Under the pieces are notes generated by a model, which was given only the letters and a program-made list of their open reading frames with translations, had not been told where the DNA came from and searched no databases. This document shows positions 6,861 to 51,048 of a stretch of 63,060 nucleotides of DNA, piece after piece. The DNA comes from a virus, in the IMG/VR virus record IMGVR_UViG_3300033996_001274, positions 1 through 63,060 of that record; one strand, given 5' to 3'. The translations under genes and the position numbers were made by a program. Numbering within the stretch: the first letter of the stretch is position 1; each line of letters opens with the position of its first letter.

Positions 6861-7169
6861 TTACCACTTAGGGGCTTCTTCTTTAAATTCGTCACCTTCT
6901 TTTTTCTTAGGTTTTGGTGCCGGTGCTGGTTTAGCATTACCATCTCCACCCTTGTTGATGATTATAGTTTTAGTACCACCTGATACTTGTTGAGGTGCTG
7001 CTTGGTTGATGTTGATTACCGGTGCTGATTGTTGTACCGGTGTTTCATCTTTTTCACCCGTAATAATTTTTGTTACATATGCTGCAATACCTAATGATAT
7101 TGTACTTACAACTGTAATTAGGATACCTTTAAAAGATTTTCCTGTTGATTCCTCTTGTTCTTCTGCCAT
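6861..7169 (-). CDS. Single-span membrane protein with Pro/Lys tail
   Basis: A 102-residue protein with one membrane helix at about residues 14-36, then a Gln/Ala and Pro/Lys-rich region (PAPAPKPKKKEGDE). The start is preceded by AGGAG, one of the few Shine-Dalgarno-like sequences in the window. No family recognised. It may be a membrane-anchored linker or part of the lysis machinery. Confidence 0.55.
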   Translation of the reverse strand: MAEEQEESTGKSFKGILITVVSTISLGIAAYVTKIITGEKDETPVQQSAPVININQAAPQQVSGGTKTIIINKGGDGNAKPAPAPKPKKKEGDEFKEEAPKW

Positions 7170-7184
7170 TGTTAATTCTCCTAT

Positions 7185-7556
7185 TTATAGTTTGTTAAAA
7201 TCCGTTATTCCTAATTGTTTACCACTTGCATCAAATAATCCTATTCTATATCCAGATGATGGTAATGCGTTTGTGTATACTTTTAAAATATTGTCACCCA
7301 CTTTTACTTCACTTGTAGATTTAGATACTACTCTATTAGCAATATCAAAAATTTTAATAGTTACAGTTTGTGCTACATCACTTTTTACATTCATAGCAAC
7401 TTCCGATGTTACAAATGGGGTTTGTAATTTGATACCAACCGCATTAGCTATTTTTAAATCATCAGTAGCCTGAGGTCTTATTGGTTCTATAATATCATCT
7501 TTATAACAACCTGTTAATAGTACTGATACTGCAATTATTGAAATTAATTTTTTCAT
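7185..7556 (-). CDS. Lipoprotein with beta-sandwich resembling a sorting domain
   Basis: A 123-residue lipoprotein: signal peptide, then lipobox LLTGC with Cys17. The rest is predicted beta-rich. Segments such as VTIKIFDIANRVVSK and SSGYRIGLFDASGKQ resemble type IX secretion C-terminal sorting domains, although the match is only by eye. The C-terminal half resembles that of the 7567-7908 protein (both share a YTN segment after a Gly-Asp/Glu-Asn turn), so the two are probably paralogues. Likely anchored in the outer membrane. Confidence 0.7.
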   Translation of the reverse strand: MKKLISIIAVSVLLTGCYKDDIIEPIRPQATDDLKIANAVGIKLQTPFVTSEVAMNVKSDVAQTVTIKIFDIANRVVSKSTSEVKVGDNILKVYTNALPSSGYRIGLFDASGKQLGITDFNKL

Positions 7557-46530: not shown

Positions 46531-48312
46531 TTATCCTTCACAACTTACACATTCAGGGTCCATTGCCTTTGTAGCAATATCGCCTCTTAATACGGATTCC
46601 GTTCTCATGTAATACAATGTCTTAACTCCTTGTTTCCAAGCCTCCATTGTTACCTGATTAATCCATTTCGGTTCTGCAATTGCAGGGAATGCTAAGTTTA
46701 GTGAAACTGATTGGTCTATATATTGTTGTCTAATACCCGCCTGTCTTACTAAATCTAATTGGTTGATTTCTTTGAATGTTTTAAATACATCCTTAACATT
46801 AAATGTTTTATGTTTATCTTCAGGTAATACCTCTTCACAAAGAATTGCTTTACCATTTACAAAACACCAATTATCTAATTCTTGAATATCTTGAATAGAA
46901 CCACCATCTTCTAAAATCTTATCCCAAATTTCTTTGGTATTAATTCCAGCTTTTTTAAGTAGTTTTTCTAATTCAGAATTTCTACGAATGAATGTTCCTT
47001 TTGAAGTTTGTTCCGTAAATACATTTGCTGCCCACGGCTCAATACCAGAACTTACATCTCCACTCAATTTAGAGTTAGAAACTGTTGGTGCTATTGCACG
47101 TAAGTGAGTATTACGGAATCCACTATCTCTACACCAAAGTGGTTCACCCAATTCAGATGCCATGTCTCTACTTGCCCTTTCAGATTCAATTTTCATTTGA
47201 GAAAATATCTTACGAGTTTCAAATTGAGCAGGCATTCCTTCAAATGGAATTCCTCTTTGTTGTAAGTAAGTGTGCCATCCTAATACACCTAAACCCAATG
47301 CTCTACCTTTTTCTGCTGAACGAACTGCATTTTCAAATCCTTTCATATTCTTAGCCTTTTGTATGAATTCTGAAAGAACTCCATCTAAGAAATAAGTTGA
47401 TGTGTAAATCAAATCAGTATCCTTCCACTCATCATATTTTGCTAAGTTTAAAGAACTTAGGCAACAAACGAATGAATGTGATTCATCGGTATGTAATACA
47501 ATTTCAGAACAGATATTAGTCATAAAAACTTTCAATCCATTTTGTTTGTACATCGATGGGTTTTGTTTATTCACATTACCCTTAAATAAAATATAAGGTT
47601 CACCTGTTGCTTTTCTTTTCTGAAGTAATTTACTCCATTTTCTTCTAGCCTCAGATTCTCCATCTTGTAGTTTTCTCATAAACTTATCACCTACAACTGC
47701 ACATTGATGAAGATTTAAACATTGACGATTAACATCACCCTTCGGTTCTCTAATCTCCAACCAATCTTCAAAATCTTTATGTTCGATGTTTAAGTTTACT
47801 GATGCTGCACCTCTTCTTACTGAACCTTGATTCGTTGCAAGAATAGTTGAATCATATATTTTACCAAATGGAACTACTCCATCGGATGTACCATTACCGG
47901 TAATCTTTGCACCTGCTGGTCTGATTTGGTTGATACCAATACCAACTCCACCACCATGCTTTGCTAATAGCATTAATTCTAAATTCTTTGAACCTATATC
48001 AAAAATGGAATCTGCTACATCTATACCAAAACAACTAATAGGTAATCCCCTATCAGTACCTGTGTTTGATAATACCGGTGTAGCTAAACATAACCATCCT
48101 CTCCATATATAATCGAAAAATTTAGATGCTAGTTGCGGTTGGCCTAATCTCTGTGCTACTTTTGTAGACACTCTCCAATACGCATCTTTTGGTGTTTCTC
48201 CCTCAATTAAATAACCCTTCGATATGGTTTTAACATATACTTCGGTATTACCCCACTCCGGGAAATCGACACCAAGTTCCCATCCAAATTCTTCACCTTG
48301 ATTTTTTGCCAT
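46531..48312 (-). CDS. nrdA: Ribonucleotide reductase class I, large subunit
   Basis: A 593-residue catalytic subunit. LPISCFGI holds the first redox cysteine, TNICSEI the Asn-x-Cys-x-Glu active site, FVCCLSS the second redox cysteine region, LYYMRTES the radical-transfer tyrosines and CVSCEG the C-terminal shuttle pair. It is shorter than cellular NrdA (about 750), lacking the N-terminal ATP-cone, so it should not be switched off by dATP. This suits a phage that needs high dNTP levels. Confidence 0.95.
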   Translation of the reverse strand: MAKNQGEEFGWELGVDFPEWGNTEVYVKTISKGYLIEGETPKDAYWRVSTKVAQRLGQPQLASKFFDYIWRGWLCLATPVLSNTGTDRGLPISCFGIDVADSIFDIGSKNLELMLLAKHGGGVGIGINQIRPAGAKITGNGTSDGVVPFGKIYDSTILATNQGSVRRGAASVNLNIEHKDFEDWLEIREPKGDVNRQCLNLHQCAVVGDKFMRKLQDGESEARRKWSKLLQKRKATGEPYILFKGNVNKQNPSMYKQNGLKVFMTNICSEIVLHTDESHSFVCCLSSLNLAKYDEWKDTDLIYTSTYFLDGVLSEFIQKAKNMKGFENAVRSAEKGRALGLGVLGWHTYLQQRGIPFEGMPAQFETRKIFSQMKIESERASRDMASELGEPLWCRDSGFRNTHLRAIAPTVSNSKLSGDVSSGIEPWAANVFTEQTSKGTFIRRNSELEKLLKKAGINTKEIWDKILEDGGSIQDIQELDNWCFVNGKAILCEEVLPEDKHKTFNVKDVFKTFKEINQLDLVRQAGIRQQYIDQSVSLNLAFPAIAEPKWINQVTMEAWKQGVKTLYYMRTESVLRGDIATKAMDPECVSCEG

Positions 48313-48325
48313 AATATTGTTTTAT

Positions 48326-49339
48326 TTAAAATAAGTCATCCCAATTCTCACCTTCACCTGCTTTTGAATAATCGGTAGGTCTCATTGCGAAGAAATCCGT
48401 ATGAGTTAACCCACCTGTTAAATGATAGAACCAATCTAATTCAGATGCTTTCTTTTTATTGAATTCAAAATGGTCATCAGTACCCGGAATTGGAGTGTAT
48501 CCTAATTCAGCAAGTTTCTCATTAATTCTTTTGATGATAAAATGTTTTAGGTCATCTTTTTTCATATTCTCTAAATCACCTTGTTCAAACATCTTATCAA
48601 TAAACTTATGTTCCAAGTCCATTATCAGTTTTGCTGCTTTATAGATATCAGCTTTTGCTTCTTGTAGTAATTCTGGGAATTCATCACACATATGTCTGAA
48701 TAGTTGACAACCCATTCTACTATGTAGGGATTCATCTCTTACACTCCATTTCATTTGTTGACCAATTCCTTTTAATTTATTTCTCATTTGAAATGAGTAA
48801 AGAACTGCAAATGATGAATATAGAGATACTCCTTCTGCAAACGCAGAGAATATTGCTAAACTTCTACCAACTTCTTTTCTTGCAATTGGGTTTGTTGCCA
48901 AATCCTCATGTGACCAATCGGCTGTAGTTTTTGTTAATAATTCAAACTTTTCTGCAATTGCAGGTTCGTGTAAAAATGCTTCAAAATCATCTAATCCTAA
49001 AGTTTCATTTAAATACGAATATGCAATTGCGTGAATAGTTTCTTGAGAACCAAACATCATTGCCATCTGACGGATTTCATGTTTTGGAAACCATTTGGTA
49101 ACCATATTAGTCCAATAATCAGATACAGCACATTCAGTCTGAGCAAATCCTAAAAGTATATTACCTACTAAATTCTTTTCAGATTCAGTTAGTGTTTCAT
49201 TCCAATCTTTAATATCACCTTGCATTGGTATTTCGGTATGTAACCAAAATGCCTGTGCTTGTAATAACCATCCTTCCGTATAATATATTGGAAATTCAAA
49301 GGGTTTGAATGGAATTCTTTCAGTAAATAATTTGCTCAT
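48326..49339 (-). CDS. nrdB: Ribonucleotide reductase class I, small subunit
   Basis: A 337-residue radical-generating subunit. Iron ligands are visible in AQTECAVSDYW, QETIHAIAYSYL (ExxH and the radical tyrosine), EGVSLYSSF and RDESLHSRMG (ExxH). Upstream of nrdA with a 13-base gap, the order being nrdB, nrdA, thioredoxin in the direction of transcription. Confidence 0.95.
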   Translation of the reverse strand: MSKLFTERIPFKPFEFPIYYTEGWLLQAQAFWLHTEIPMQGDIKDWNETLTESEKNLVGNILLGFAQTECAVSDYWTNMVTKWFPKHEIRQMAMMFGSQETIHAIAYSYLNETLGLDDFEAFLHEPAIAEKFELLTKTTADWSHEDLATNPIARKEVGRSLAIFSAFAEGVSLYSSFAVLYSFQMRNKLKGIGQQMKWSVRDESLHSRMGCQLFRHMCDEFPELLQEAKADIYKAAKLIMDLEHKFIDKMFEQGDLENMKKDDLKHFIIKRINEKLAELGYTPIPGTDDHFEFNKKKASELDWFYHLTGGLTHTDFFAMRPTDYSKAGEGENWDDLF

Positions 49340-49352
49340 TTTGTAACTTTTT

Positions 49353-49523
49353 TTATTTGTTCTCTTCTACTGATAATTTTCTATAATCCGTAATAAGTTT
49401 CTTTAATTCTCCAATCGCTTTTCTTGCTCTTGATTTGGATGCCTTAGTTGCCCCGTTGTGTTCTGCTTCGAATTGAGTAAATAAATCCTTCATTTGTTCG
49501 AATAATTCAGTTGATGTTGCCAT
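49353..49523 (-). CDS. Histone H1-like (Hc1-type) mini-protein
   Basis: A 56-residue protein found by reading the gap upstream of nrdB: MATSTELFEQMKDLF, then NGATKASKSRARKAIGEL and a basic helix. The Gly/Ala, then Lys/Ser/Arg-rich helix matches the Hc1-like small histone H1 homologues of Bacteroidota, which bind DNA. It could compact phage DNA or replace host nucleoid proteins. The start at 49523 is the first ATG; a basic helix and a clean stop at 49353 support the call. Confidence 0.7.
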   Translation of the reverse strand: MATSTELFEQMKDLFTQFEAEHNGATKASKSRARKAIGELKKLITDYRKLSVEENK

Positions 49524-49557: not shown

Positions 49558-49668
49558 CCAACAAAATATCTTGTTGGTGAGTATAACTATTGTATATATG
49601 AAAAAAAGAAATGATTTTTTTTAATATTTTTTTTCTTTTTTATTATCCCACATTAGCAAAAAGCTAAC
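49558..49668 (-). other. Two hairpins between helicase and histone-like gene
   Basis: The 163-base space between 49523 and 49687 has two inverted repeats: 49558-49577 (seven-base-pair arms, six-base loop) and 49653-49667 (TTAGC arms, five-base loop). Between them is a nearly pure A/T stretch. Neither is followed by a clean run of U in the direction of transcription, so I do not call them terminators. They may be processing sites or part of a promoter region. Confidence 0.4.
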
Positions 49669-49686: not shown

Positions 49687-51048
49687 TTACCCCATATTTT
49701 CTACATACTTCTTATGTAGAAGTTGTTTCTGAACCATTTGTCCGTTGTTAGATTCCTTTGAAGCAATAATCCCATCAGCGGAAGCTGCATCATATACTTC
49801 GATAAATCCTGTGTTCGTATCCATCTTACAAGGGAAAGTAATTCCATCTGGCCCAAATCGGTTTTTCATAATGTGAGCCCTTGCAGTATTGTTCAATTTA
49901 TCTTTTGATTTTCTACTCCAACTCATAATGAAATCTGCATTCATAACCTTTGCATACGAATCTGCAATCTTATCTGCTTCAATTACATCTGAATCTATCG
50001 CAGAACGATTTGTTTGAGAAGCAGTCCATATTGGTATTCTCAATTCACCACCCATACCTCTAAGGTCAATATAAACACCACCTTGTTCAGCATAAGTTGA
50101 ATCCGTTTTATTTGAATGGGAAAGAAGTAAATCTGCATAATCCACAATAATTAGGTCAGGCCGGTTGCCGGTTGCAATCATTTTTTCAATATGCATTTGC
50201 AACTTCTTAACACTTACCCCTTTTGGTGGATAATATTTAATAAGTAATTTTCCTTGTAATCCTTTGATTTTTGCTTTAACATCCTCTTTTCTATCTCTCA
50301 AATCTGCAGATGGGATATGAGTAAAGACAGTATCGTATCTTGCACCTACATAGTGTTCTGATAACTCCATTGTATAATGAACTACACTTAATCCAGATTT
50401 AACTGCCGATGCACCCAATGCGGTTAGAATCCAAGTCTTACCAACACCGGATGGTGCAACTACTACTCCTAATTCTCCTGGTCCTAATCCTCCATCCATC
50501 AAATCAGTAATGGGTTTCCAATCAGTTGGGACGGTATCCCTCTTTTCATCTACTGAACGGGATTCAAAATCTAAAACATAATCATGTCCTAAATCGTTTT
50601 CAACCCCAACCTTCATTGCCTTATCTACGAGGTCTTTGATTTTATCGTAACTTCCTGCCTTTAATAAATCTACTGATTGTAGAATTACTTGTTTTAAGTT
50701 TTGATTTTTACAAAAGGATGTAAATTCCGTTTTAATGTAGGCTAAATCAGTTACGTTACCTACTTGTGTGTAGATATGACGTAATTGTTCTACAATCGTT
50801 GTTTGTAATCCTTTGTTATCTAATTTCGATAAACTTACTTTGAAAGCATCCATTGTGGGTGCTTGTCTATATTCAGTATGATAGTTAACAATTTCACTAA
50901 CTATCCATTTGTTTGCATCCGATTCAAAAAATTTGGGTGTAACAATTTCTGATATTTGGTCTAAGAATTTATCATCGGTTAATAATGCAGATACAACTTT
51001 GGATTGGAAAGACTGTCCGTATTTCGATAAGTTGTCTATATCTTGCAT
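49687..51048 (-). CDS. Replicative DNA helicase (gp41/DnaB-like)
   Basis: A 453-residue helicase: N-terminal helical domain (1-150), then a RecA-like core with Walker A APSGVGKT at 198-205, Walker B LIIVDYADLL near 300, and a Q-ATASQTNRS type motif (WTASQTNRSA). It should form a hexamer that unwinds the fork in front of the polymerase. No primase gene is visible in the window. Confidence 0.92.
   Translation of the reverse strand: MQDIDNLSKYGQSFQSKVVSALLTDDKFLDQISEIVTPKFFESDANKWIVSEIVNYHTEYRQAPTMDAFKVSLSKLDNKGLQTTIVEQLRHIYTQVGNVTDLAYIKTEFTSFCKNQNLKQVILQSVDLLKAGSYDKIKDLVDKAMKVGVENDLGHDYVLDFESRSVDEKRDTVPTDWKPITDLMDGGLGPGELGVVVAPSGVGKTWILTALGASAVKSGLSVVHYTMELSEHYVGARYDTVFTHIPSADLRDRKEDVKAKIKGLQGKLLIKYYPPKGVSVKKLQMHIEKMIATGNRPDLIIVDYADLLLSHSNKTDSTYAEQGGVYIDLRGMGGELRIPIWTASQTNRSAIDSDVIEADKIADSYAKVMNADFIMSWSRKSKDKLNNTARAHIMKNRFGPDGITFPCKMDTNTGFIEVYDAASADGIIASKESNNGQMVQKQLLHKKYVENMG

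Follow-up and report, generated by a model that had tools for sequence, protein, structure and literature searches.

A short Hc1-family gene ahead of the ribonucleotide reductase genes in phages of probable Bacteroidota hosts

What does a 56-residue histone-like protein do for a phage that encodes it between its replicative helicase and its ribonucleotide reductase (RNR)? The gene, here called HC1, lies in a 63,060-base virus record (the window, meaning the whole stretch analysed) of the 'linear' class, which often denotes a fragment. Its open reading frame (ORF) runs from 49523 to 49353 on the minus strand, is complete with an ATG start, and fills 49353–49523 exactly; the plus strand of this interval contains stops. 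Thirteen nucleotides separate the end of HC1 from the start of nrdB (48326–49339, minus strand), which encodes the class I RNR small subunit, and nrdA (46531–48312, minus strand), encoding the large subunit, then follows. Both were identified by DNA matches to the annotated beta and alpha subunits of Flavobacterium phage immuto. The next gene upstream encodes a DnaB-like replicative helicase (49687–51048, minus strand; phrog_19, E 3.8e-76). A preliminary description had placed a 56-residue Hc1-type protein here, just upstream of the RNR genes, and the reading frame, the position and the family resemblance were all borne out. The minus strand carries 74 of the 75 ORFs kept in a rough gene map of the window; the sole plus-strand ORF (7006–7473) may be a chance frame opposite a gene. 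Judging from relatives, the phage host is probably a member of the Bacteroidota.

Family membership was assessed by profile search. HC1 scored 39.2 bits against the Pfam Hc1 family PF07432 (gathering cut-off 23.5), covering positions 2–56 of the 57-position model, and was the only match to this family in the window. A scan of IMG/VR found relatives encoded on 82 viral contigs, the best 80 of which were kept (L001–L080). All 39 aligned members (the window plus 38 viral loci, with the contig L082 of a metagenome-assembled genome, MAG, counted among the 38) matched PF07432 at E ≤ 0.001, and no other Pfam family. HC1 was single-copy in each of 20 viral records searched over their full length. Its DNA is identical in L002 and L003, while L001, L004, L005, L006 and L007 encode the same protein with 4–5 synonymous and no nonsynonymous changes from the window. 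Over 701 pairs with pS of 0.05–0.6, drawn from the 68 of 81 sequences that are 168 nt long, the median dN/dS was 0.16 and the maximum 0.52, so the gene is under strong purifying selection. A score above the Pfam cut-off, 82 viral relatives and selection together mark HC1 as more than a chance ORF; that it is a real gene of the Hc1 family is virtually certain. PHROGs returned a best E of only 0.041 for HC1, and the window protein had no match in NCBIfam, the chlamydial HctA model NF051889 included. A Flavobacteriales MAG includes the contig L082 (CAJXYM010000018.1), whose HC1 is 77% identical to that of the window; the contig may itself come from a phage.

The viral proteins are 55–61 residues long, and three of the 39 members matched the HctA model NF051889 at E ≤ 0.1. 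The relative L079, which has a longer linker, aligned to positions 8–58 of its 121 positions with 28 bits (equivalog cut-off 100). On this alignment viral HC1 is the counterpart of the N-terminal half of chlamydial HctA and lacks the C-terminal half, which lies beyond the point at which the L079 match stops. The missing half matters, because the DNA-binding domain of HctA is placed in the C-terminal region in the accessible part of PMC3469542; the title of a work cited there calls the N-terminal half a potential dimerisation site. With the C-terminal half missing, 'histone' is a family label for HC1 and no proof of DNA packing, and, as far as sequence comparison goes, DNA binding is an unproven property attached to the family name.

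The AlphaFold2 model of HC1 is a two-helix hairpin (residues 4–21 and 27–55; mean pLDDT 95.8, pTM 0.76). Eukaryotic linker histone H1 has a winged-helix globular domain, a fold not found in HC1, whose predicted model consists of two helices only. Fifteen positions are invariant in the 39 sequences (F18, H22, K27, A33, R34, I37, G38, E39, K41, K42, L43, T45, Y47, K49 and S51). Helix 1 has one basic and five acidic residues and helix 2 nine basic and four acidic; the net charge of the protein is only +2. Helix 2 shows a weak clustering of its basic residues along one face (shuffling p 0.04, uncorrected), giving a marginal strip; four other proteins tried gave p of 0.01–0.05, and an ordinary host Hc1 (L087) gave 0.44. 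A fold search of the PDB and BFVD with the model yielded no match at E ≤ 0.001, and a search of solved structures got no lower than E 0.29 for the protein, or 0.28 when its profile was used. The BFVD entry 'Histone H1 [uncultured virus]' superposed with a TM score of 0.90, yet with an E of 0.87, as do many helix pairs, and was set aside as a structural match.

The gene setting was then compared across viral loci, taken as the best 80 of 82 HC1 loci and, independently of HC1, the best 80 of 420 nrdB loci. Some contigs occur in both sets, and near relatives are over-counted because only the best matches were taken. Of the 80 HC1 loci, 55 have an RNR gene no more than 3 kb downstream of HC1, of class I in 47 and of class II in 8; none was found downstream in 16 loci with at least 3 kb of contig, and the contigs of the other nine end earlier. 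Of the 47 class I loci, 45 have a gap of 9–21 nt from the end of HC1 to the start of nrdB. Class II RNR follows HC1 in L066, L068–L070, L072, L073, L075 and L077, and the RTPR model confirmed the class in L068 (E 2.4e-69) and L075 (E 6.6e-65), with scores below the full-length cut-off for proteins that are both shorter than the model. The order in L075 is UvsX, DnaB, HC1, class II RNR, which is that of the window with the other reductase class, a gene order such as would result from replacing the reductase while HC1 stayed in place. A clamp-loader gene lies just upstream of HC1 in a further setting, seen in 14 of the same 80 loci (L024, L031–L035, L039 and L046–L052), and the neighbours of HC1 in L054–L057 had no assignable name. 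In some phages a DNA methyltransferase gene (L005) or a Mom gene (L013, L077) occupies the gap between DnaB and HC1. The Mom family proteins adjoining HC1 (PF25680, E ~1e-52) are products of DNA-modification genes at L013:4024–4824 and L077:4100–4900. Separately, the first part of the class II RNR in L066 carries an intein-like stretch just below the Pfam cut-off, and DnaB-like matches are split over two to three ORFs in L066, L071, L073 and L077, perhaps by an intein or insertion.

Among the best 80 of 420 nrdB loci, 32 carry HC1 upstream of nrdB and 48 lack it. In 41 of these 48 HC1-less loci dnaB and nrdB are 13–117 nt apart, and in the other seven the spacing is larger. HC1 is thus an optional accessory insert that the gene order does not need. 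Of five clamp-loader-type records searched, three contained nrdB, and in all three dnaB was followed by nrdB with no HC1 between. We conclude that HC1 is a true phage gene, accessory and under selection, that belongs to the Hc1 family.

The reading we prefer is that HC1 is an intracellular, DNA-associated protein of the replication phase, to which we give roughly even odds (about 0.5). It is suggested by the setting among replication and nucleotide genes, with RNR in 55 and a clamp loader in 14 of the best 80 of 82 HC1 loci. HC1 would be made in the replication phase from a promoter-like block before the nrd operon, and would serve as a small nucleoid protein that works inside the cell and not in the virion, with replicating phage DNA (or host DNA) as its target. 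Two hairpins might self-associate through their hydrophobic faces, leaving the basic side of helix 2 to sit on or bridge DNA. Pairing would fit the reference title in PMC3469542 that makes the N-terminal half of HctA a potential dimerisation site. For the DNA contact, the basic character of helix 2 and the invariance of K27, R34, K41, K42 and K49 in 39 sequences are the pointers; self-association combined with contact through helix 2 is held tentatively, with the odds somewhat against it. Counting against this reading are the net charge of +2, the absence of the DNA-binding half of HctA, the marginal strip on helix 2, the lack of a fold match at E ≤ 0.001 in PDB or BFVD, and the 48 of 80 nrdB-chosen loci that do without HC1.

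Cellular relatives bear on a different possibility, that phage HC1 is a partner or decoy of host Hc1, pairing with the host protein to alter or block its action with no DNA binding of its own. The genome of L082 is titled uncultured Flavobacteriales, from which its phylum is taken to be Bacteroidota. Of 296 genomes sampled from that phylum, 177 have PF07432 above cut-off, and the conserved part of HC1 is the half of HctA named as a potential dimerisation site (reference title in PMC3469542). However, no Hc1 was seen in the other 119 genomes, and the viral short-linker proteins form a type apart from the common host ones, in which a longer linker (KGNKAAG type) precedes helix 2. A search with the viral alignment gave 100 matches out of 395, L082's own genome being the best, and the short-linker type was found in seven genomes among 30 cellular loci fetched. 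In a tree of 98 rows and 62 columns, which excludes the L082 contig, duplicates, and cellular hits that score below 12 bits against the viral profile or lack a fitting start, 47 viral and seven cellular rows form a short-linker group (99/94) apart from the common host types. This tree gives no direction of transfer, and a single viral origin is unsupported, since the viral rows need three changes and the starred branches force two. No RNR gene was seen by eye beside cellular Hc1 in 16 regions, at up to three neighbours per side. Two cellular Hc1 genes (L154:4957–5148 and L155:4567–4758) have upstream neighbours that, by eye, resemble type I restriction-modification genes. Weighing both sides, we regard the decoy role as unlikely.

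Take-over or shut-off of the host nucleoid seems unlikely to the same degree. The preliminary description had suggested that HC1 packs DNA or shifts the nucleoid in the take-over of the host, and overproduced chlamydial Hc1 is reported to lower the synthesis of both DNA and protein in E. coli (as cited in the accessible part of PMC12619734). That effect, however, belongs to a protein with the C-terminal DNA-binding region that HC1 lacks, and HC1 sits with nucleotide and replication genes, where nothing points to host DNA. A charge of +2, the loss of the DNA-binding half of HctA and the status of an optional insert beside replication genes leave the suggestion unsupported. A role in the virion or in packaging, condensing phage DNA as suggested for the moraphage proteins in the accessible part of PMC12619734, is more improbable still for HC1: the gene precedes RNR (55/80) or follows a clamp loader (14/80; best 80 of 82) rather than keeping company with structural genes, and its charge would be too low for a typical packing protein.

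Between DnaB and HC1 the leader holds a 27-nt block (49573–49599, minus strand), promoter-like by inference, that is near-invariant in 12 aligned relatives; it has one match in the window and none in 100 shuffles. Its core, at up to five substitutions, occurs in 54 of the best 80 of 82 HC1 loci in a search that was run without a control. A leader hairpin or terminator-like stem-loop (49558–49577, minus strand; eight pairs and a T-rich tail) lies between block and HC1, one being found against 0.1 in shuffles. Of 28 distinct leaders, 23 have a predicted hairpin and five do not, and in several leaders the stem letters differ on both sides between phages (by eye, uncounted). L066 and L068–L073 have a degenerate block and no hairpin, and the leaders inspected at clamp-loader-type HC1 loci have no block. 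In the best 80 of 420 nrdB loci, a 21-nt form of the block (up to four substitutions) was present at 23 of 32 loci with HC1 versus none of 48 without. The block was considered as an element of HC1 itself, an idea dropped because shorter related blocks precede nrdB in the HC1-less loci L203, L219, L164 and L166 (by eye). Those shorter forms make it more likely, on the sequence pattern, that the block serves the nrd operon, and not HC1, as promoter. Where HC1 lies farther from nrdB, such a shorter block stands between the two in six of seven loci inspected, which also spoke against the earlier idea. That HC1 regulates the RNR operon through this leader or promoter is the least probable reading of all: the tight nrdB spacing (9–21 nt in 45/47 class I loci), the block and hairpin before HC1 in many leaders and the eight class II RNRs likewise preceded by HC1 (best 80 of 82) speak for it, but in 14 of the same 80 loci HC1 adjoins a clamp loader, with no block in the leaders inspected, L066 and L068–L073 keep a degenerate block and no hairpin, and nrdB without HC1 is common (48/80; best 80 of 420).

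Some relatives carry a second gene of interest. In L028 (4906–5313) and L065 (4825–5232), a SET-like gene and a MazG-like gene, the latter below its cut-off, lie between HC1 and nrdB. Relatives of the L028 gene occur in 12 of the best 80 of 82 HC1 loci, directly after HC1 in two and after nrdB in ten, and encode 113–139 residues, the shortest cut by a contig end. The SET family PF00856 was the best Pfam hit for all five proteins tested, with nearly the whole model covered; one scored above the cut-off of 22.4 (25.6) and four below (19.3–22.1). Against the PDB the profile weakly matched chains of histone-lysine methyltransferase 2A as its best hit (E 0.034), and two proteins searched had no SET match in NCBIfam. 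The AlphaFold model was poor (pLDDT 56.3) and a fold search from it uninformative, leaving the SET identity to rest on sequence profiles. A scan with the L028 protein returned 20 relatives, 13 at 61–100% identity and seven at 28%. In all 13 closer contigs (L244–L256, two of them the contigs of L028 and L065) the SET-like frame lies at most 16 nt after HC1, the pair being preceded by DnaB in 12 of them and followed by NrdB in 12; HC1 was not found near the gene in any of the seven distant relatives. Independent cases number fewer than 13, as some contigs look like near copies from related samples. In the nrdB-chosen set (best 80 of 420) the gene occurs in three of 32 loci with HC1 and in none of 48 without. 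The window, which may be a fragment, has no SET-like ORF (best BLAST E 0.14). According to the accessible part of PMC3980110, cpnSET methylates Hc1 in Chlamydophila pneumoniae, and NUE of C. trachomatis does not. A small modifiable phage chromatin can be imagined, in which phage DNA under replication is coated by HC1 and, in relatives of the window phage, the adjacent SET-domain protein methylates HC1, tuning compaction while the adjoining RNR feeds replication; we consider this extension unlikely.

Phage Hc1 is already in print, so HC1 is not the first: a PF07432 histone H1-like protein was reported in four complete moraphages in November 2025 (accessible part of PMC12619734), and BFVD already holds a viral entry named Histone H1. 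The moraphage protein is likewise phage-encoded PF07432, and most moraphage hosts are predicted to be Bacteroidota; unlike the phages studied here, moraphages are a lineage of large phages, and the accessible part of that report mentions no RNR operon or SET gene, the likeness being stated at the level of the family. KNV73_gp196 of Flavobacterium phage immuto is 62.7% identical over residues 6–56; it is annotated as a hypothetical protein and lies after GroEL, not beside RNR. The Hc1 proteins of Bacteroidota share family, length class and the lack of a long tail with HC1, but their common types differ in linker length. In the open-licence literature we found neither the link of HC1 to RNR over two classes, nor its optional place between dnaB and nrdB, nor the pairing with a SET-like gene, which is no proof of newness; a paper on the function of the short Hc1 form was likewise not found there.

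Among 296 genomes sampled from the inferred host phylum 177 have Hc1 proteins, as do many phages, and the gene setting of HC1 may help to reveal the function of Hc1 in phages. Together with two RNR classes and, in relatives, a SET-like gene, HC1 makes up a small, defined system in which DNA binding, timing and lysine methylation of a histone-like phage protein might be studied. If modifiable phage chromatin proved true, it would be a phage parallel to cpnSET.
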